From a virus, in the IMG/VR virus record IMGVR_UViG_3300031566_000299, positions 1 through 27,429 of that record: a stretch of 27,429 nucleotides of DNA. One strand, 5' to 3'. This document shows, one piece after another, positions 8,503 to 27,429 of this stretch. Position numbers and translations under genes: made by a program. Each line of letters opens with the position of its first letter. The stretch's first letter is position 1. Under the pieces are notes generated by a model that worked only from the letters and a program-made list of their open reading frames with translations, had not been told where the DNA came from and did no database searches.

Positions 8503-9495
8503 TTACTGGTTCACAGCGGCTTTGGGACCGCTGGACATGTCCACAGCGGACCCGGCCCAGATGTTATTGTCACCTTTGGACTTTTCAACGTCCTCAGTGC
8601 CTTCCCCGGCCTGGCTCTGTCCCGCATTCTTTTCCACGTTGTCCAGCCTGGCTCCGATGCCTTTCAGCTGCTCGGCAATGCTGCCAACGCCCTCAAGCTG
8701 CTTGGTGACCGGCTCCAGTGCCTTGGTGATCTGGGCAGCCACCTCTGATCCGTCGATTTTGATGACAGTGTCCCCGTCAGCGTTTTTTTCCGTCTTGGAC
8801 TCTTTGGGGCTGACATCGGCCAGCAGACCTTTGAGAGTGTCCATGGCCTTTTCCACGTCGCCAACGCCCTTTTCAAGCTGGGCCAATCTGGTCTTGCTCA
8901 GCTTCGCCCCGGCCTTTTCCACGTCCTCATCGGTGCCAGTGTCGTCACTGACAGCGTCATCGGACTTTTTGGCTGCCACCGGCCCCATGGCACTCATGGC
9001 TTCCTGCATCATCGCAAGCGCACCCTTGGTGTCACCGGCTTTGAGCTTGGCCATTGCTCCCATGAGCTTCCCTTTGGCAGCCCCGGCCCCGGCCTTTTCC
9101 GTGGTTTCCTCGGTGCCGTCACCGGCATCGTCGCCACCTTTCTGATCCTGGGCTTTTTCGGTTTCGGTGAGCTTCTCAAGCGCACCGGTCATTTTCTCAA
9201 CGGTTTCAACCAGCTGGTTTAACACCATCTGATCGCCGTTGGGCTCAGTGGTATCGTTGTCTGCGGTCCCGTCCGCCTTGGTGACATCGTCCACTTCCGC
9301 AGCGTCAACTTTTTGACGCTTCACTTTGGTTTCGTCAGCCATGTTTGGCCCCCCTTTTCTTTTTATGATTGCGTAATCACGCTCATTAGCCCCTGAATCA
9401 ACCAGGCTAACCTCTTTGACAGACAGGCCAATGAAACGTCTTTTTGGTTTGGCGGATACATCCACCATGTTCTTTTCTGTGTCTAACTCAGCCAT
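8503..9495 (-). CDS. Capsid scaffold protein with XkdF-type VSLVD motif; two in-frame starts
   Basis: The long form is 330 aa. Residues 18-48 carry KRRFIGLSVKEVSLVDSGAN and the following residues up to KRKG. This resembles the closing segment of XkdF-like prohead proteases, here placed on the scaffold. From residue 52 the protein is Asp/Glu/Lys/Ala-rich with heptad-like stretches (LNQLVETVEKMTGALEKL; ITKALEPVTKQLEGV), as expected for an elongated scaffold. A second ATG at 9342 has its own AAGGGGGG (9349-9356), giving a 279-aa scaffold without the motif. The first ATG at 9495 also has AAGGGGGG (9505-9512). Scaffold between protease and capsid genes is the usual order. Confidence 0.75.
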   Translation of the reverse strand: MAELDTEKNMVDVSAKPKRRFIGLSVKEVSLVDSGANERDYAIIKRKGGPNMADETKVKRQKVDAAEVDDVTKADGTADNDTTEPNGDQMVLNQLVETVEKMTGALEKLTETEKAQDQKGGDDAGDGTEETTEKAGAGAAKGKLMGAMAKLKAGDTKGALAMMQEAMSAMGPVAAKKSDDAVSDDTGTDEDVEKAGAKLSKTRLAQLEKGVGDVEKAMDTLKGLLADVSPKESKTEKNADGDTVIKIDGSEVAAQITKALEPVTKQLEGVGSIAEQLKGIGARLDNVEKNAGQSQAGEGTEDVEKSKGDNNIWAGSAVDMSSGPKAAVNQ

Positions 9496-9513
9496 TCATT
9501 GCTTCCCCCCTTT

Positions 9514-10668
9514 TTACGCAGGTATGGTCCTGGCTATTCCGCCGATTGAGAAAGCACGCAGCTTTCCTGCCTTGACATCATCCCAGGTGTTGTCGTCTAG
9601 CACTTTCACGGTCATTATCCAGGAGCCAGCCTTGACATGCTGGTTACCCAGCGCCATCGGTTGCGGAGCGATGTAGCTTTCAACGATCCTGATTTTGCTA
9701 GACTTCCTGAAGTCACGGTGCATGATGCCCATCTTTTGATACTCTATCATGAAGGCGTGTGCTGCATCGGAGATGACTTTGGCACTGTAAATATCGCCGT
9801 GGCTGTCGGTCACTTCCGGCTCCAGCACAACGCCCGTCACTGTCCTTTCCTCTTCACTGGACTTTGCAATTGGCATCGTCCACGCAAGCTCATCGCCTAA
9901 TTCCTGTACTTGTTCACCAGATTCCTTGATCACCTTTTTCGGCTTGTCCATTTCCTGATTCCCCGGCCTGTAAATCATCCACCGCCTTTCCCCGTTGCCA
10001 AGAGGCACGTTGGTGAATATCCACCTGCCGTTCATAACCTTCCCGCCCTTGAACATGAACTCTTTGTAATTCTCATCCTGGACACCGGCTGTCCAAGTGA
10101 ATTTGTCCACTATCTTGAACCGGCTCCAGGAATCATTGGTGGACCCGACTGCGCCTGGCGGATATATTTTGGGTGTTCCATCCCCGACTTTCATCCACGA
10201 CATTGGACCCTTGGCCGTGTCATAGTCGCTGGACAACTTAAATGTCCCGGCCATCCTGGCATATTCCACTTCCCTGAATTTGTTTTCCTTGAACTGATTC
10301 CCCGGAGTGAACACCGTGAATCCTTCCCAATAACCCTTGCCTGCCGGTGCCATGCGAATATCGGTGTGGATGCTAACCGGGTTGACCAGACCAACCAACC
10401 GCTTATCCGCCGCTGACAAGCCCGACAAATCCACCTTGTCGATCTTGGGGAATGCCTCTGTGTTTCCCGCCGCCGCCCGGCCCAAAGCTGCTTCCCAATT
10501 CCCAGGAGCCAATTGCTTGAGGCGTGTCACCTGGCTGGGTTCCAATTCCACTGGGTCCCACCCAAAAGCAAAACCGGCCCCCATTCGCTTCGCCTGATTT
10601 TCTGTCAGACCACGCTCATGAATCTGGGTGATTCCTTTTCCCTTGTCCCCTGGTTTGAAATCAAACAT
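9514..10668 (-). CDS. Prohead protease, XkdF-like, with long N-terminal extension
   Basis: The C-terminal domain (about 275-384) resembles the XkdF putative serine protease: VTGVVLEPEVTDSHGDIYSA, a HAFM helix, MHRD with H317, a KAGSWIMTVKV strand, and KLRAFSIGGIA with S374. H317 and S374 are the candidate catalytic residues. It would process the prohead, cutting scaffold and possibly capsid arms. The N-terminal 265 residues are extra. They contain PPGAVGSTNDSWSRF and GKVMNGRWIFTNV...RRWMIY, vaguely like the 3'-phosphoesterase domain of LigD, but I am not sure of this. The ATG at 10668 has AGGAG 6 bases upstream. The stop lies 18 bases before the scaffold start. Confidence 0.75.
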   Translation of the reverse strand: MFDFKPGDKGKGITQIHERGLTENQAKRMGAGFAFGWDPVELEPSQVTRLKQLAPGNWEAALGRAAAGNTEAFPKIDKVDLSGLSAADKRLVGLVNPVSIHTDIRMAPAGKGYWEGFTVFTPGNQFKENKFREVEYARMAGTFKLSSDYDTAKGPMSWMKVGDGTPKIYPPGAVGSTNDSWSRFKIVDKFTWTAGVQDENYKEFMFKGGKVMNGRWIFTNVPLGNGERRWMIYRPGNQEMDKPKKVIKESGEQVQELGDELAWTMPIAKSSEEERTVTGVVLEPEVTDSHGDIYSAKVISDAAHAFMIEYQKMGIMHRDFRKSSKIRIVESYIAPQPMALGNQHVKAGSWIMTVKVLDDNTWDDVKAGKLRAFSIGGIARTIPA

Positions 10669-10907: not shown

Positions 10908-12821
10908 TTAATACCCCTTCATCAATCCTTTTTCGCCCATCCCGGTCACCACTTTTTCAAACGCTGTTGCAAAATCATAATCCCTGAAAACGCCCACATT
11001 TTCCTGCATATATTCAAACCTTGCAACCACAGCATTAACTGATGTGTCGTCCAACCCTGAATTGACCAACACATCCTTGAGATCATCAGCTTTTGTTTCC
11101 TTGAAGAACTTGAATATGCTCTGATCGGTCTTCATGGGATCAAGCCCGCCCAACTTAGAATCGCCACGTTGAAGCGCATATCCATTTCCGCCCCTGGGCA
11201 ATCCTTGTGGTGCTGCCAGCCCGTTGTCGATGGCATACACCTTGTTTCCTGAAAACATATAGTTGCCCATGTGCCGGTCGCCATTGGCGAACATGGCATC
11301 CATGACATCCATCTGTTGGACACGCTTACTCCTGAGTGATTTCAGGAATCGCTCACGGTTGCTCCTGTTAATGTCACCAGCCGTCTTGGCGCCTGGGACT
11401 TTTTGCTGTATGGATACAAACCCGTGACCCTCAACTTCACGTGTAACCGTCCTGGGAACAATACCCCAACCAGATATGTTGTGATCAAACTCAGACAAGG
11501 CAGCTTCCCTGCGAGCCATTGAACCTGGTTTTATCTTCTTGGCTGCTGTTTTCCTTGCCGATGACCCTGGAGGTGCTCTCAAATACTCAAGCAAATTCTT
11601 GTGTTCCCCCGCCGCCGGTTTCATTATCCCGGTGATGCCATCTTCCATCGTCACCCAAAATGCTTCATTGGATGCCTGTTGTGCCCCCAATGGCGTTGTG
11701 TTCATGATCTGACTATTCCGCAAACTATTCCCAACCGGGTCAGGCGGAATGAAGACCGGATTGCTTGGTGAGCTTCCCGGCTTCAACGCATCCATCGCAG
11801 GCACCTGTATTGAACCTGATTGGAAGCTGTGAACCACAACGACCGTCCTACACCTGAAGTGATATGGTGGCAGAGCCATTCCGGCCTTGGCCAGCTGCGA
11901 CTCATCCATGCCTTTGATATCGGTCGGTGACTTCCACTGAACAGTCTTGAGCGCATCTGCTTTGTTGTTTGCACCCAAGTAATCATCCATGTAGGTCTGG
12001 GCAACCTGAATATCAAATGTTTGCCCGTCCATCAACCTACATATTTCAGATGTCCGCTGGTCCATGACAGCTTCGATCTTGTAGGTGGCAACCCCGGCCT
12101 GGGTGAATGTTGATATCCTTCCAAAGTTGGCCGCCCTGTTTTGGATGGTCCCGGCCAACCCCTTGAAATAACTCCGAACGCTTCCTGGGAAAGTTGATGG
12201 AACCAGGTCTGCTAAGGTGCTTGCCCCGGCTGCCAACCCCAATTCCTTTGCCAGCTGTTTTTCCAATTCCCCGGCCGCAACTGTCCGGCTGTATCCGCTC
12301 TCAAGCATCACCCTCGTGGTAATATCCCGGACCCGCTTTGAAAGCGCATCATTGTAAAAATCGCCTATCCACCACACCTGTTCCCTGGCCAACGCCTGGA
12401 CTGCGTTTTGATCAATCTGATTCAACGCATATTTGATTCCGAACGTCTTGGCCATCGTGCCCTTTTCCGCCATGTACAGGGCTGATGTGGCAGCGATGAG
12501 TTGCTGGACTTCACTCTTGGACAAGGTGCTGAATTGTCCTGCCGCCCAAGTCATCGCCCGATCTATTCTGGCCTGGCTTAATTCTCCACCCTTCAACTGC
12601 CCAATGATTCCTGCCATGGCCTTTTTAGCCTTGCCCTGGAACTGCTCCAACATCACAGTGCTGAGCCTGGCCTCTGCTAACCGGCCTGTATTTGCCTTCT
12701 CAACATGGCCTATATCTGCCAGCATTTCATCGAGAATGGCAGCCCCTGCCACGATGTCACCTGTATCCATGGTATGAACCACACCACTGAATCCAAGCAT
12801 ATTTCGTGCCAGGTTATTCAT
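10908..12821 (-). CDS. MuF-type minor head protein fused to a PI3/4-kinase-like domain
   Basis: This 637-aa protein has two parts. Residues about 100-330 are a MuF (SPP1 gp7-like) head-morphogenesis region, with YKIEAVMDQRTSEICRLMDG (D254, C261) and the closing PPYHFRCRT (H321, C324). After a Pro/Ser linker, residues about 380-620 resemble a PI3/4-kinase-fold phosphotransferase: GIMKP with candidate ATP-binding K401; RREAALSEFD with E439; catalytic-loop-like NGDRHMGNY (D515, H517, N520); and metal-binding-like YAIDNGLA (D532). MuF proteins sit at the portal and in some phages carry variable toxin or enzyme tails; a kinase-type tail could act on the host after DNA entry, which is inference. 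The ATG at 12821 overlaps the portal end by 8 bases. Other starts up to 12869 cannot be excluded. Confidence 0.8.
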   Translation of the reverse strand: MNNLARNMLGFSGVVHTMDTGDIVAGAAILDEMLADIGHVEKANTGRLAEARLSTVMLEQFQGKAKKAMAGIIGQLKGGELSQARIDRAMTWAAGQFSTLSKSEVQQLIAATSALYMAEKGTMAKTFGIKYALNQIDQNAVQALAREQVWWIGDFYNDALSKRVRDITTRVMLESGYSRTVAAGELEKQLAKELGLAAGASTLADLVPSTFPGSVRSYFKGLAGTIQNRAANFGRISTFTQAGVATYKIEAVMDQRTSEICRLMDGQTFDIQVAQTYMDDYLGANNKADALKTVQWKSPTDIKGMDESQLAKAGMALPPYHFRCRTVVVVHSFQSGSIQVPAMDALKPGSSPSNPVFIPPDPVGNSLRNSQIMNTTPLGAQQASNEAFWVTMEDGITGIMKPAAGEHKNLLEYLRAPPGSSARKTAAKKIKPGSMARREAALSEFDHNISGWGIVPRTVTREVEGHGFVSIQQKVPGAKTAGDINRSNRERFLKSLRSKRVQQMDVMDAMFANGDRHMGNYMFSGNKVYAIDNGLAAPQGLPRGGNGYALQRGDSKLGGLDPMKTDQSIFKFFKETKADDLKDVLVNSGLDDTSVNAVVARFEYMQENVGVFRDYDFATAFEKVVTGMGEKGLMKGY

Positions 12822-22998: not shown

Positions 22999-23805
22999 TT
23001 ATGATCCTGTCAATTGTTTCGGTTCAACGACTTCAGCGTCAATGATTCCCTCATCGACCAGCTCATTGATTTCCTGCATCTCAAGCATAATGCTCCGGGC
23101 AATGTCCAGATCAGTCATATTCCGAACGTCCAGCGAACCAATGAACTCAATCCGCTTCGCCCGCTTCTCAATCACTCCCATATCCTGTCCCTTGGAAATG
23201 ATCTTGTCCAATATCTCAGACTTGGCTTTCACAGCCCCGACAAGCGCATTGTGTTGCTTCGATGTCTTGAAGCCATCGATCATTTTCTGCAACTCCAGCA
23301 CGCATGATTTCTGCTCTAACACATAATGGGCATACACCTGAAATGTCGTCTGCTTCTGAAGCTGTTCAATCAGCCGGTCCATCACGCCGGTCTGCAGCTT
23401 CCGATATTCCGGCAACCCAATTCCCAATTCCTTGGTTGCCTGTTCATCCGTCAGACCTCGCATGATCGTGTCTTGAACCAGGTCCAACATGACTCTGTGA
23501 TTGGCCGCCGTCCTCATCTTTGAATCCGGCTCAACCTGAGGCACCTTGGCTGGCAGACCTCGTGCCTGACGCAACTCATGCGGCCTCACCGTATTGTCCA
23601 CAACGACCTTTTTGCGCTTGGGTGTGGCCTTCGGTGCATCTTTTTTATCTGCGTTGGCAGGTGGTGTGCTCTGCTTTGCCGGTGCCCTGGTTATGGACGC
23701 AACCGCTGTGGCAATATCTTCTGACGGCGCAACCAATTGATTCTTGATCACTTGACCGCCGCCCCGCTGAATGGCTCGCACATCGTCTTTGACCTTTGAC
23801 GTCAT
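22999..23805 (-). CDS. Terminase small-subunit-like HTH protein
   Basis: This 268-aa protein probably recognises phage DNA for packaging. The N-terminal 90 residues are charged and low-complexity (Lys/Pro/Ala). A helix-turn-helix follows at about 105-140 (VMLDLVQDTIMRGLTDEQATKELGIGLPEYRKLQTG). The rest is long helices, including the segment HNALVGAVKAKSEILDKII then SKGQDMGVI, a pattern I associate with phage small terminase-like proteins. The start at 23805 has GAGGGG 8 bases upstream. The frame stays open to 24018, but those 71 codons overlie hairpins and a repeat and have no ribosome-binding site. It is separated from TerL by seven genes, so identity remains probable. Confidence 0.65.
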   Translation of the reverse strand: MTSKVKDDVRAIQRGGGQVIKNQLVAPSEDIATAVASITRAPAKQSTPPANADKKDAPKATPKRKKVVVDNTVRPHELRQARGLPAKVPQVEPDSKMRTAANHRVMLDLVQDTIMRGLTDEQATKELGIGLPEYRKLQTGVMDRLIEQLQKQTTFQVYAHYVLEQKSCVLELQKMIDGFKTSKQHNALVGAVKAKSEILDKIISKGQDMGVIEKRAKRIEFIGSLDVRNMTDLDIARSIMLEMQEINELVDEGIIDAEVVEPKQLTGS

Positions 23806-23828
23806 GCCGTGCACCCCTCTGTCCCGAA

Positions 23829-23880
23829 CCTCAAACCATCCAACCACAAATTGAGAACGCTTCCCCCGGTCCTCAAACCA
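23829..23880. repeat. 10-bp direct repeat in front of the small terminase gene
   Basis: CCTCAAACCA occurs at 23829-23838 and again at 23871-23880, 42 bases apart, just upstream of the small terminase ATG. A small inverted pair (TTGAG / CTCAA) lies between. Such paired sites near a small terminase gene could be packaging-site recognition elements; only position supports this. Confidence 0.4.
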
Positions 23881-23970
23881 GGTGGACATGCTCCATTCTG
23901 CTTTTTGTGTGTTGTGCGGGAGATGTTTTGGCCCCACCGCCAGGGAGTGCCGATGACAAAATGGTATGCC

Positions 23971-24018
23971 TTGGCCGCCTTCACCGACACACGGTGGGAC
24001 CATGGAGGTGGCGGCCAA
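23971..24018. repeat. 9-bp inverted repeat with inner stem (hairpin)
   Basis: TTGGCCGCC (23971-23979) pairs perfectly with GGCGGCCAA (24010-24018). Inside, CACCG (23982-23986) pairs with CGGTG (23992-23996) around a 5-nt loop. On the minus strand this is about 165 bases upstream of the small terminase start and would form a stable leader hairpin. Confidence 0.55.
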
Positions 24019-24026
24019 ACTTTCCC

Positions 24027-24120
24027 GGTGCTTTCAAGGCTCAAGCCCAGGCAAGTAGCAAACCCGGACTTGAGCCTGTAGCAAAGAATCCCAGACCTCA
24101 GCCTGAGCCTTGAAATCACC
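24027..24120. repeat. 17-position inverted repeat with alternative pairing
   Basis: The arms 24027-24043 and 24104-24120 match at 16 of 17 positions, including a perfect 12-bp core (TTTCAAGGCTCA / TGAGCCTTGAAA). Part of the left arm (GGCTCAAG, 24038-24045) can instead pair perfectly with CTTGAGCC at 24069-24076, so two structures exclude each other. It could be a leader control element or a protein-binding cruciform upstream of the small terminase gene. Confidence 0.55.
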
Positions 24121-24426
24121 GTGCTTACCTTTCCATTCAACTTGGAACCTATTTGTTCAAGATGGTATATTGTAGAATTTTTTGGCCGCACATACAAGTG
24201 CCCAGCCAGGGTGCGGCACGCCAAAATTTGCGTGCCGGAATTAAACCCAGTGGGGTGGGGTGGGCTTGCGCATTTATAAATTAAACTTGAGGAACAAAAA
24301 CATTTTGGTAGCCCCCGCCGGATTCCCCCGCAAAAATCTTTTATCACGATGGCCACCATGGCCTTGCAGATTCCCGATAAAGACAACCGCAAAACTATTC
24401 CACGCCCCCCGGCCACTGGATGGGTG

Positions 24427-24449
24427 GATGGCGCCATTGTTCCATTGTC
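24427..24449 (+). repeat. Dispersed repeat G, copy 1 (23-nt core)
   Basis: The 23 bases starting GATGGCGCCATTGTTCC are identical to 24969-24991. The core contains the palindrome ATGGCGCCAT. It is the shortest copy of repeat G. Confidence 0.7.
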
Positions 24450-24747
24450 TTTCATTTCACCCCTCGATGCCGGAGCAACACCAGGCCTCACGCCGTCGCC
24501 GTGCTCGACATCGACCACACCACACTTCCCAAACCCCTCAGACAAAGGATTGAGAAAACATCCGCACACTTCCCGACTTTCATATTGCCGGGTGGGCCGG
24601 ATCAATTCAGAATGTTTTGTCGCAGGACTCAACGAACAGATATGGGCTGTGGACTTTAGGAATTTTGATATGGCACTTGAACGAACCAATGTGTGAAATC
24701 CCACACCAACACAAATCGGAATCGCCCAACGACCATAATGTTTGACG

Positions 24748-24778
24748 TGTGTGTCAAGCTTGTCAACCTTGTCATGTT
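24748..24778. repeat. TGTCA array A (iteron/operator-like)
   Basis: TGTCA occurs at 24752, 24761 and 24770, exactly 9 bp apart, so the sites lie on nearly one face of the helix. One more TGACG half-site lies at 24743-24747 on the other strand. This is the first of four such arrays in the non-coding region. Confidence 0.6.
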
Positions 24779-24826
24779 GGTGCATACGTTTCGCAGCCGG
24801 ATTCTTGCATGCTGGCCTATGCAGTT

Positions 24827-24868
24827 GCGTATGCATAAGTAGTTGAAAAGGTTGAATACACGAATGCA
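24827..24868 (+). repeat. 42-bp direct repeat, copy 1
   Basis: It begins GCGTATGCATAAGT (containing palindromic TATGCATA) and ends TTGAATACACGAATGCA. It matches copy 2 at 35 of 42 positions. It lies between TGTCA arrays A and B. Confidence 0.7.
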
Positions 24869-24895
24869 ATGCTGAATGCAGGCCGGTGGCATGTG

Positions 24896-24929
24896 TGACA
24901 TGTTTGTCATCGTTGTCATTCTTGTAGGA
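24896..24929. repeat. TGTCA array B (iteron/operator-like)
   Basis: TGACA at 24896, TGTCA at 24905 and 24914, and TGTAG at 24923 form a series with a strict 9-bp step. Arrays C and D end in a similar TGTA site. Confidence 0.6.
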
Positions 24930-24954
24930 TGGATTGCGGCCTTTCCGGTCCGCT

Positions 24955-24991
24955 CCACCAGATGGCGAGATGGCGCCATTGTTCCATTGTC
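24955..24991 (-). repeat. Dispersed repeat G, copy 2 (inverted orientation)
   Basis: Read on the minus strand, about 33 bases match the copies at 26092-26124 and 26196-26228 with three differences, sharing CCATCTCGCCATCTG. Read on the plus strand its 3' part is identical over 23 bases to copy 1. Confidence 0.7.
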
Positions 24992-25015
24992 CGGCCATTG
25001 TTCGTTGTTGCTTTG

Positions 25016-25057
25016 GCGTATGCATAAGTGTTTGAATTAATTGAATACACGATTGCA
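25016..25057 (+). repeat. 42-bp direct repeat, copy 2
   Basis: Second copy of the element at 24827-24868 (35 of 42 identical), 189 bases downstream. Both copies keep GCGTATGCATAAGT and TTGAATACACGA. Confidence 0.7.
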
Positions 25058-25088
25058 GGGGTGAGATGGACCGTGGGTGGCTTGGGTG

Positions 25089-25136
25089 GCCGGTCCCCGT
25101 AGGGGACAATGCTGTGGAGCTTGAGCATTGTGCTGG
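25089..25136. repeat. Stem-loop element X (related to Y)
   Basis: GTCCCC-GTA-GGGGAC (25093-25107) is a 6-bp hairpin with a 3-nt loop. AATGCT (25108-25113) and AGCATT (25124-25129) form a second hairpin immediately after. GTCCCCGT, ATGCT-TG and TGAGCATTGTG recur in the same order at 25970-26006 (element Y). Confidence 0.55.
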
Positions 25137-25734
25137 CTGGGCGTGGCACACGCACACATGGCATGCTTGGTGTTTGGTCAAGTAGGAATTATCAACGCCC
25201 AAGTTCAAGCAACCATCCTCCAATCAGCTTTCCAGGTTATCACTTAGCAGGTTGTTACAGCCCTTCCCAGTCTCATCCTTCATTGTCCGCTGTACGCTTT
25301 CCTGCACCTCATCCGCTTCCGTCCGCCTGTACATTTCGCTTTCCCGTTTCATCCCTCTGAATATACCCTTCGCACTCCCATTAGTCAAGCTTTTTCTTTC
25401 CCACTCATTGCCCTGTTGTGCTCCCCTTTGAAAACTTTTCTCAAACAGTCACGCCTCAATCGTGATGTCCAGGGCGAACTCAGGACCATTCTCACTTCCC
25501 GTGGCCTTGTTCATCGTGCTCCCCCGGTCCTTTCAGCTTCACTCACCTCATTCGATTCCGTCCAAAGCTTGAGCAATCCGTCTGCCTATGTAGATGAATG
25601 TTCATTATGTAGCATGGTAGGTGGATATGTAGCGTGGCCCCCCTTCCCCCTTTCCGCCCTGCTCTGGATGGCTCCATCTCCCATCCCCTCCATCTGGTGG
25701 TCCCCTCGATTTTTCCCCGCCAGGCACCGCATCG

Positions 25735-25777
25735 TGTCAACCTTTGTCATGTGTGTCAACCTTGTCAGGCTCTGTAG
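25735..25777. repeat. TGTCA array C (iteron/operator-like)
   Basis: TGTCA at 25735, 25745, 25754 and 25763, then TGTA at 25773: steps of 10, 9, 9 and 10 bp. The last site is within CTCTGTA, as in array D. Confidence 0.65.
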
Positions 25778-25881
25778 GTGAGTGGACCCGGTGCGCCGCT
25801 TCCCCTTCCCGTGTAATGGCCCGTCCCCCATCCCCTCCACTGTCCGCTCCACCTCGACAATCCTATACATCCATCAAGCTT

Positions 25882-25933
25882 TGTCGGCTTTGTCAAGCTT
25901 TGTCACCGGTGTCAAGGTTGTCACGCTCTGTAA
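25882..25933. repeat. TGTCA array D (iteron/operator-like)
   Basis: TGTCG at 25882, TGTCA at 25891, 25901, 25910 and 25919, and TGTA at 25929: steps of 9, 10, 9, 9 and 10 bp. This is the longest of the four arrays. Confidence 0.65.
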
Positions 25934-25965
25934 TCCGGCCCGGCCCCGCCCTCTCACCTCGCACG

Positions 25966-26006
25966 CCCGCCGTCCCCGTGATGCTCTGCCCTGTGAGCAT
26001 TGTGTT
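25966..26006. repeat. Stem-loop element Y (related to X)
   Basis: GTCCCCGTG is followed by ATGCTC (25981-25986) paired with GAGCAT (25995-26000). It repeats the layout of element X, without the first hairpin's right arm. Confidence 0.5.
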
Positions 26007-26064
26007 CCCCCTGGCCGCCGCTCGGATTCCGCCCGCCAAACACGTCATACAGCCGTGGTTTTGG

Positions 26065-26140
26065 GATTATGATGAGATATGATGGAATATGATGGAACAG
26101 TGGCTCCATCTCGCCATCTGATGGATTATGATGAGATATG
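26065..26140 (+). repeat. AT-rich direct repeat with repeat G, copy 1
   Basis: 76 bases that recur at 26164-26244. It begins GATTATGATGAGATATGATG, contains repeat G (GGAACAGTGGCTCCATCTCG, then CCATCTGATGG) and ends with GATTATGATGAGATATG again. The ATGA-rich flanks make it the most AT-rich part of the region. Confidence 0.75.
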
Positions 26141-26163
26141 ATGAGACTTGATGCCAAATGATA

Positions 26164-26244
26164 GATTATGATGAGATATGATATGATGGAATATGATGGA
26201 ACAGTGGCTCCATCTCGCCATCTGATGGATTATGATGAGATATG
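26164..26244 (+). repeat. AT-rich direct repeat with repeat G, copy 2
   Basis: Identical to 26065-26140 except for a 5-base insertion (an extra GATAT-type step), 99 bases downstream. The near-identity points to a recent duplication. Confidence 0.75.
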
Positions 26245-26269
26245 TAGCCTGGTTTAGCAAAATGTAGTC

Positions 26270-26323
26270 GGCTGAACAAAACTTCAGCCCCTTCCCGGCT
26301 CTCAACAGGTTGGGGCTGAAGTT
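26270..26323 (-). terminator. Terminator-like hairpin with a competing alternative stem
   Basis: Arms 26280-26291 and 26312-26323 form a perfect 12-bp stem (AACTTCAGCCCC / GGGGCTGAAGTT), loop 20 nt. On the minus strand the stem is followed by TTTTGTT, a short U-tract, about 80 bases after the stop of the 26405 gene. GGCTGAA at 26270-26276 can instead pair with TTCAGCC at 26283-26289, which uses the same arm, so the two hairpins exclude each other. It could end the upstream operon or be a conditional terminator. Confidence 0.55.
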
Positions 26324-26329
26324 GCTCAA

Positions 26330-26396
26330 CACGTCCGGGTCAAGGAGCCAACCGCCGGTGAGTTAGGCCAACGGCTGTGAAAAATCCCCGGACGTG
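26330..26396 (-). repeat. 10-bp inverted repeat with inner stems
   Basis: CACGTCCGGG (26330-26339) and CCCGGACGTG (26387-26396) are perfectly complementary. Inside, AGCC (26346-26349) can pair with GGCT (26373-26376), giving a multi-stem fold. It starts 8 bases after the stop of the upstream gene and precedes the terminator-like hairpin. No tRNA signature is present. Confidence 0.55.
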
Positions 26397-26404
26397 GAGC
26401 AAAA

Positions 26405-26884
26405 TCAATCGCTGGTCGCCGCTTCCCGGACTCTGTGCAATATCCCCAAGGCCACAGGCAACTCGCAACCCGAACACGGGTCACCAGGCAGGTGTCGGTC
26501 ATCCCCGCCGCAATCCCCGCACTGAGCTTCCATAGCTGCCAACGCTTCATCCAACTTGGGTATCGGTATGGCGGCCTGGTCCACCGTGGCCCCCTGTGTC
26601 ACGCAGGGCATCACCGTCTTGGCTACCTGCTTGCCCGCTTCCGGCTCCACCCCTTTCACCGTGATCCCGGCCCGCTCATCTGTCTCGATGTCCTGCCAGG
26701 TCAATTCCAGCTCACCCAGCCCCGGAAAGTAACAGGCTGTGATCTTGTGTGTTGCCTTTTCCTTCCGGTATGCCTTGGCCAGCACGCTCACCGCCAACTC
26801 CAGCCGGGTCAACTCCCTCAGATCACTATTGACGAACTCTGTCTTGAGCCGGTCCGCCAGTGCCAATGCTTCTTGTTCAGTCAC
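26405..26884 (-). CDS. Unknown protein with C-terminal Cys4 knuckle
   Basis: This 159-aa protein has a helical N-terminus (EQEALALADRLKTEF, LELAVSVLAKAYRKEK) and a Cys4 motif near the end, C122-x2-C125-x11-C137-x2-C140 (CGDCGG and CSGC), probably binding zinc. I do not recognise the family. A GTG at 26884 is preferred (AAGGGG 6 bases upstream) over the GTG directly before it at 26887. It overlaps the gene upstream by 8 bases. It is the last gene before the non-coding region. Confidence 0.65.
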   Translation of the reverse strand: MTEQEALALADRLKTEFVNSDLRELTRLELAVSVLAKAYRKEKATHKITACYFPGLGELELTWQDIETDERAGITVKGVEPEAGKQVAKTVMPCVTQGATVDQAAIPIPKLDEALAAMEAQCGDCGGDDRHLPGDPCSGCELPVALGILHRVREAATSD

Positions 26885-27429
26885 CACTTTCCCCTTTTTC
26901 GTTGTAAGTCCAACAAATAGACACCGCCCGGTCCGGTGCTGAGCACACTCCCCCCTCTACACTCACGTTCAACGGAAAAACATTTGTCAAGCGCAGCCGC
27001 TTCCCCTGCTTTGTGGTAATGATCCAATCTGTTTGATCCGCAACCCCTTTCACCACCATAAGTGCGACCGCATCATATGTTTCGCCCTTGTATGTTAATT
27101 GACCTGTGATCTGCCTGGGATTAGGCAATGGAACCAACTCCGACACACCGTGTATTGGATTCCCGTCCAATTCATCCTTCCATTGCCCTATCACCTCTGA
27201 CACCGGTGTCTCGAACAACTCCAACTCGCAATCACCTGTATTGTCGGCCATTCCGTCGCCCTCGCACACCTTACAATCGCCGCCGTTGAAGTCATCAACA
27301 CCTGCCCCCTCGCACGCCGGACATTCAACAATGGCTGTTTCAATTTCCTTCACAGGCACACCCGGATAACCGGCCCGGTGATGATCAGCTTCCATCGCCA
27401 CGTCATAGCACGTGCTTGAACAATATTCG
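26877..27429 (-). CDS. Cys-rich zinc-finger-like protein, partial (5' end outside window)
   Basis: The frame is open to the right edge: codons beyond the GTG at 27401 read EYCSSTCYDVAMEADHH, which looks like a Cys-pair knuckle continuing into the known part, so the true start is likely outside. Two further CxxCxG motifs follow (CPACEGAG and CKVCEGDG), like the zinc repeats of DnaJ-type proteins. The C-terminal half is a beta domain (ITGQLTYKGETYDAVALMVVKG, WIITTKQGKRLRLTNVFP). Function unknown. If the start is the GTG at 27401, the protein is 174 aa. Confidence 0.65.
   Translation of the reverse strand, partial: EYCSSTCYDVAMEADHHRAGYPGVPVKEIETAIVECPACEGAGVDDFNGGDCKVCEGDGMADNTGDCELELFETPVSEVIGQWKDELDGNPIHGVSELVPLPNPRQITGQLTYKGETYDAVALMVVKGVADQTDWIITTKQGKRLRLTNVFPLNVSVEGGVCSAPDRAVSICWTYNEKGESGD

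Follow-up and report, generated by a model that had tools for sequence, protein, structure and literature searches.

A candidate control region with a conserved stop-free frame in the largest intergenic gap of a contractile-tailed phage

The largest intergenic gap of a contractile-tailed phage, represented by the IMG/VR record IMGVR_UViG_3300031566_000299, contains a 473-codon frame on the transcribed strand that is free of stop codons both here and in a diverged relative, and that carries no coding signature. Our comparison suggests that this gap of 2.6 kb is a compound control region of four parts, placed between two operons on the same strand, rather than one big non-coding RNA. Tentatively, and at somewhat less than even probability, we propose that the 1.4-kb frame is kept open through selection on translation itself, with any amino acids, as a “ribosome track” that would host other nucleic-acid signals. 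The conserved layout, the frame open beyond chance, its missing coding signature, the promoter sequence and two local RNA folds can be regarded as established at the sequence level.

The gap and its conservation in a relative

We analysed the complete record of 27,429 bases (the window). All recognisable genes lie on one strand, here called minus, and belong to a contractile-tailed phage, with PHROG matches for tail sheath, portal and large terminase. Two related records were compared. The sister contig G001 (82,156 bp) is 99.95% identical to window positions 1-24206, where the contig ends. The second, G002 (IMGVR_UViG_3300035158_000550, also labelled L024; 17,579 bp), is a diverged relative whose large terminase is 84% identical and which spans the whole gap region.

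The gap extends between the gene ending at 26405 and the putative small terminase gene (terS) starting at 23805. It is about four times as long as any other in the 82-kb G001, where the next largest measures 607 bp, and G002 has a gap of 2.28 kb flanked by homologous neighbours. A preliminary description of the window had singled out this gap as unusually large and argued that such a region must be paying its way; the comparison confirms the former, and the latter holds as well, as the relative conserves the gap and its position along with several elements within it. Region-against-region blastn of the window and G002 yielded four blocks well above shuffled sequences (shuffle maximum 31 bits), at window positions 23923-24414 (196 bits), 25065-25519 (67 bits), 24661-24700 (37 bits) and 26284-26347 (37 bits). 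The third of these, conserved block B2 (24661..24700, minus), is 80% identical to G002 10110-10149.

The gap region matched nothing in Pfam, PHROG, NCBIfam or Rfam, and no tRNA was found in it. Viral contigs searched with profiles of TerL, portal and terS, and genome contigs searched with TerL, revealed no further close relatives, and none was found among annotated phages or bacterial genomes; in phage records, neither blastn nor tblastn retrieved anything for the region, for terS or for the long frame.

A long frame open in both phages

The stop-free frame occupies 23802..25223 (minus, 473 codons), and the homologous frame of G002 (9299-10660, 453 codons) is likewise without stops. The frame starts align, as TTG in the window and ATG in G002, and the terminal stop overlaps the terS start in both phages, by 4 nt (ATGA) in the window and by 8 nt (ATGCCTGA) in G002. 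Zero internal stops compare with about 15.5 expected in the window and 16.8 in G002, and the remaining two minus frames contain 21 and 16 stops in the window and 21 and 18 in G002. When the substitutions were permuted on the observed alignment, 10.0 or 12.5 stops were expected, and 0 of 20,000 permutations remained stop-free. Judged from this pair of sequences, the openness of the frame is conserved beyond chance.

The frame shows no coding signature. Changes are spread flat over the codon positions (116/106/120, each of 274), most alignment gaps in the frame are not multiples of three, and frameshifts within it are compensated after short runs. Amino-acid identity between the window and G002 amounts to 0.325 in frame and to 0.319 and 0.280 in the other frames, while the putative terS gene, used as a control, reaches 0.605 in frame vs 0.402 and 0.321 in the others. 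Purifying selection on amino acids and a third-position excess of changes were looked for in this frame and not found. The residue and codon-position composition of the window frame equals that of random stop-free sequence (chi2 4.1, null mean 7.5), with codon positions unlike those of the phage's own genes and with G002 slightly above the random range; among 53 long open stretches, the window and G002 frames rank lowest, and the codon score alone spoke against coding for the 473-codon frame. An AlphaFold model from the two-sequence alignment had a predicted local distance difference test score (pLDDT) of 27, shallow alignments always being a limit to models of this kind. Family, PDB and phage matches were all absent. 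The preliminary description had seen no convincing gene in the gap, which is correct in part; what it overlooked is the stop-free 1.4 kb common to both phages, a frame without detectable amino-acid conservation. A programmed frameshift into terS was considered and dropped because the frame offset differs between the window and G002. The G002 leader also contains an exact 27-bp tandem duplication, TTCCCCGGCCCCGGACACATGCACATA (L024 9830-9883), a multiple of three within the stop-free frame.

A sigma-70-like promoter sequence, TTGACT-17-TATATT (25360..25388, minus), lies ahead of the frame and is aligned with TTGACT-17-TATTAT in G002 (10826-10798). Starting about 8 nt past the -10 hexamer, a near-leaderless upstream open reading frame (uORF) of 42 codons (25224..25352, minus) ends in a TGA immediately adjacent to the TTG with which the long frame starts. 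Its amino acids are not conserved, and a similar uORF starting with MKR is readable in G002. From the predicted transcription start to terS, the sequence is thus covered by frames throughout, the uORF and then the long frame. A conserved promoter and a leader open reading frame (ORF) ahead of the first gene are also found in translation-controlled Rho attenuator leaders. Within the leader, block B4 (25059..25136, minus; homologous to G002 10492-10569) is C-rich and G-poor and constitutes a rut-like candidate with two small hairpins; its covariation was not significant. Another C-rich, G-poor window occurs on the RNA strand just after element B8, described below.

Local RNA folds, repeats and neighbouring genes

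In sliding-window folding of the transcribed strand only two elements stand out, B8 and B1, and the rest is ordinary, so that the region, described earlier as structure-dense, is not so throughout. Element B8 (26262-26404, minus) follows the upstream operon. Folded independently, the window and G002 sequences form identical arrangements of two hairpins (z -6.05 and -5.28), and the plus strand of G002 has no folding signal (z +0.55). The stems are largely rewritten between the two phages, and the apical CCUGUUGAGAGCCGGG is invariant. Hairpin I (26324..26400, minus) consists of a 14-bp stem, 9-nt internal loops, a 10-bp inner stem and a 9-nt loop, an architecture that is the same in G002. Hairpin II (26281..26322, minus) presents the invariant apical sequence and is followed by UUUGUUC; read as an intrinsic terminator, it would have this tail in the window and UUUCCUUCC in G002, and the terminator scan made no call. 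Scanning with a DNA pattern of the B8 loop produced 27 matches, chance-like except for G002. An attC-like reading of hairpin I was dropped by inspection, as the left core misfits and folding is favoured on the RNA strand. The lambda 6S late leader and the HK022 put antitermination RNA likewise have paired hairpins in transcripts near the borders of operons; B8 resembles them by this general layout, is not known to be similar to them otherwise, and differs in its position 3′ of an operon's last gene.

Element B1 (23923..24310, minus; about 390 nt) lies within the stop-free frame, immediately ahead of terS, and is about 70% identical to G002 9342-9727. It contains a long, covarying hairpin (24026..24121, minus) with a helix of about 21 bp, in which six two-sided compensatory changes and two one-sided G-U changes occur and no shared pair is broken. 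Its z values are -5.35 in the window and -5.50 in G002, and the plus strand is less stable. In a permutation test, 14 two-sided changes were kept vs 6.7 expected, which was significant; the same test was not significant for the terS coding control and the mid-leader. Two pattern scans with B1 returned known relatives and chance-like matches only, the matches of one scan not having been screened individually. The end of the G001 contig falls exactly inside B1, at window position 24206; this end may be physical or may result from a break in the assembly. The B8 two-hairpin RNA and the 21-bp leader hairpin are candidate new structured RNAs, each backed by one phage pair.

The many repeat families and hairpins noticed before were confirmed, and several families are specific to this locus; concentrated in it are the TGTCA clusters, a 10-bp ATGATGG array, repeat F3 and the ATGTAGC motif. 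The array (26062..26246) consists of direct repeats of 10-bp period of the ATGATGGAAT/ATGATGAGAT type, includes two 70-bp copies and is poor in G on the minus strand; its position in G002 is taken by another 10-bp array (GGTCAATGTN). TGTCA(A) repeats with 9-10-bp spacing form two plus-strand clusters (25735..25783 and 25874..25933); inside the leader there is one more at 24741..24783 (plus) and another at 24893-24927. The density of TTGTCA is 3.85/kb in the gap region vs 0.66/kb in the remaining sister genome. Two ATGTAGC motifs lie in 25601..25640 (plus) and a third at 26241-26247, that is, three in 2.6 kb vs four in 82 kb; G002 has five in 2.3 kb vs one in 15 kb. F3, GATGGCGCCATTGTTCCAT, occurs at 24955..24991 and 24413-24449 and inverted at 26092-26125 and 26196-26229.

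The dispersed repeat D5 has copies at 25009..25064 (plus) and 24820-24875. The element (ATGCATAAG ... TTGAAAAG.TTGAAT.CA) was also observed in G001 at 9516-9567, 12157-12240, 27407-27468 and 38095-38145, where it immediately precedes ribosome-binding sites. Its copies in the sister genome lie directly before minus-strand genes; in the gap region its orientation is opposite and points away from the operon. D5 is likely a phage promoter or 5′ leader motif.

On the downstream side, the putative terS gene (22999..23805, minus, 268 aa) is the first gene of the morphogenesis operon. Its assignment is based on its position and on a predicted helix-turn-helix plus helical region only. The AlphaFold model has a pLDDT of 50, with 70-80 in the helix-turn-helix part; family and PDB matches were absent for terS, and Foldseek of this low-confidence model was uninformative. 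The last gene of the upstream operon (26405..26887, minus, 160 aa) has C-terminal DnaJ-type CxxC-like motifs and a weak Pfam DnaJ_CXXCXGXG match below cut-off. Two adjacent upstream genes (26405-27401) each carry such CxxCxGxG-like motifs below the Pfam cut-off.

Two further observations concern the sister genome. A repeat of about 150 bp (GGGCTACACCAAAAAAAAGTT ... AAAAAAAGTTTGG ... CGATTTTTTTCTTGCCTTTCCATTCAAGA ... CTATACT) recurs in four of its intergenic gaps (L019 1881-2066 and 3506-3992; L020 12715-12892 and 14148-14507; G001 1881-34507), with a sigma-70-like promoter at its end, and resembles a regulated promoter or leader that was duplicated. A 1020-aa ORF (L019 12289-15351) matches SbcD-like and SbcC-like PHROGs and is an apparent SbcD-SbcC fusion.

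Proposed mechanism, rival explanations and meaning

From this arrangement we infer transcription, translation, protection from Rho, coupling to terS and roles for B1, B8 and the repeats. The two-hairpin RNA of B8 would end the upstream transcript; the repeat arrays and then the promoter would follow, from which a leader of about 1.55 kb, more than half of the gap, would run into the morphogenesis operon. The uORF, the frame of about 470 codons and the overlapping terS start would form an unbroken ribosome path, with selection acting on leader translation and not on its product. Ribosomes trailing the polymerase would probably shield the long, partly C-rich leader from Rho, and termination-reinitiation would then pass translation on to terS. 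In the same transcript, B1 would serve as an RNA element for processing or attenuation, or it might alternatively double as a DNA site in packaging. As a whole, this model of a leader held open for ribosomes, with embedded RNA elements, seems to us nearly as probable as not.

Leader translation has known regulatory roles. tnaC is a leader ORF whose translation controls Rho-dependent termination. Translation of the corL and mgtL leader ORFs lowers downstream expression (PMC11552253), and coupled ribosomes are known to prevent termination by Rho (PMC7858274). The window shares with mgtL, corL and tnaC an ORF before the first gene, leader RNA structure and the proposal that translation sets termination; it differs in that the known leader ORFs are short, whereas this one has about 470 codons, is apparently amino-acid-neutral and overlaps the next start. 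To our knowledge, the proposed ribosome track is far longer than any leader ORF known. The overlap of the leader-frame stop with the terS start also resembles ATGA translational coupling, with the difference that the upstream cistron here gives no sign of encoding a selected protein.

Several points weigh against this model. Conservation is judged from a single pair, since the comparison covers two distinct species, one of them as a fragment. The rut-like C-over-G windows of the leader rank no higher than about the 95-99th percentile, and stronger ones exist on the plus strand. Use of Rho by the host is an assumption, and Rho is treated here as a hypothesis. The codon-position bias of the G002 frame is slight, at 17.7 vs a null 95% limit of 15.9. 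Ribosomes would disrupt stable RNA structures in a translated frame, which complicates the role of B1 as RNA, and the B1 permutation test was significant for some plus-strand comparisons too, so this element may act as DNA.

The main rival holds that the 473-codon frame is an ordinary protein gene, fast-evolving or de novo, with the conservation of B1 reflecting a separate overlapping DNA or RNA signal. Both phages have the frame open, with start and stop contexts that match, tblastn of the window frame against G002 gives 29.6% identity over 453 aa (E 3e-33), and the slight G002 codon bias points the same way; random-like composition is moreover what is expected of de novo proteins. Yet in-frame amino-acid identity is no better than in the other frames, substitutions are flat by codon position, frameshifts are compensated after short runs, and the missing family, PDB and phage matches and the low pLDDT also speak against a protein. 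We consider this rival unlikely. A large ornate non-coding RNA filling the region, like GOLLD or ROOL, is highly improbable. Its length and the phage context would fit, GOLLD and ROOL being phage-borne with conserved secondary structure, and phage ICP1 offers a parallel in an abundant ORF-less transcript of about 800 nt between operons (PMC7567579). That transcript lies in about 1 kb of ORF-less space in a phage that is compact elsewhere and is comparable in length to GOLLD and ROOL; its place is the lysis cluster, and in the window phage the frame is open. The Rfam search that had been recommended was run at gathering and relaxed thresholds and returned nothing meaningful, and the window has no tRNA, while GOLLD and ROOL are often near tRNA islands. 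Folding energy is unusual in two local windows only, which argues against one large ornate RNA; a continuous covarying structure extending over several hundred nt was not seen, and no covariation was detected in the middle (24310-24700). Of the long structured RNA suggested earlier, two short local elements are real (26281-26400 and 24026-24121, minus), in a region with a stop-free frame, and not one RNA of GOLLD or ROOL size.

That the region is mainly a replication origin, with the TGTCA, ATGATGG and ATGTAGC arrays as initiator binding sites and the other features incidental, appears rather unlikely. The locus-specific direct repeats, spaced by roughly one helical turn (9-10 bp), are as in iteron-type origins and fit an origin, as the preliminary description had considered, or an operator array; ATGTAGC is enriched at this locus in both phages, the gap is the largest in the genome, and the satellite PLE provides a precedent with an origin and iterons within a large non-coding region (PMC7145576). 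On the other hand, cumulative GC skew has no turning point in 82 kb, the gap region contains no AT-rich 500-bp window that could serve as an unwinding zone, and no initiator gene was recognised nearby, the upstream genes being without informative family match. An origin would also leave the stop-free frame and the strand-specific RNA folds unexplained. A packaging (cos/pac) site recognised by terminase is quite unlikely as the role of B1. As a DNA element beside terS, it would account for B1 being the strongest conserved block immediately upstream of that putative gene, for three copies of AGGCTCARG-type arms and for the near-identical 82-kb contig terminating within it. At its opposite end, however, G001 does not pick up the window sequence, which makes an assembly break the simpler account of the contig end, and the G-U changes of the B1 hairpin pair only on the minus strand, where folding is much stronger. 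Both an origin and a packaging function may exist alongside a leader held open for ribosomes, and the probabilities given to these readings therefore need not sum to one.

In gene finding, an open frame is taken either as a protein gene or as chance; here a frame is open beyond chance, with amino acids that are seemingly unselected. If the leader model is confirmed, “non-coding” phage leaders can be selected for ribosome passage, orphan ORFs beside operon starts would be annotated differently, and a direct test of translation-dependent Rho protection would become possible.

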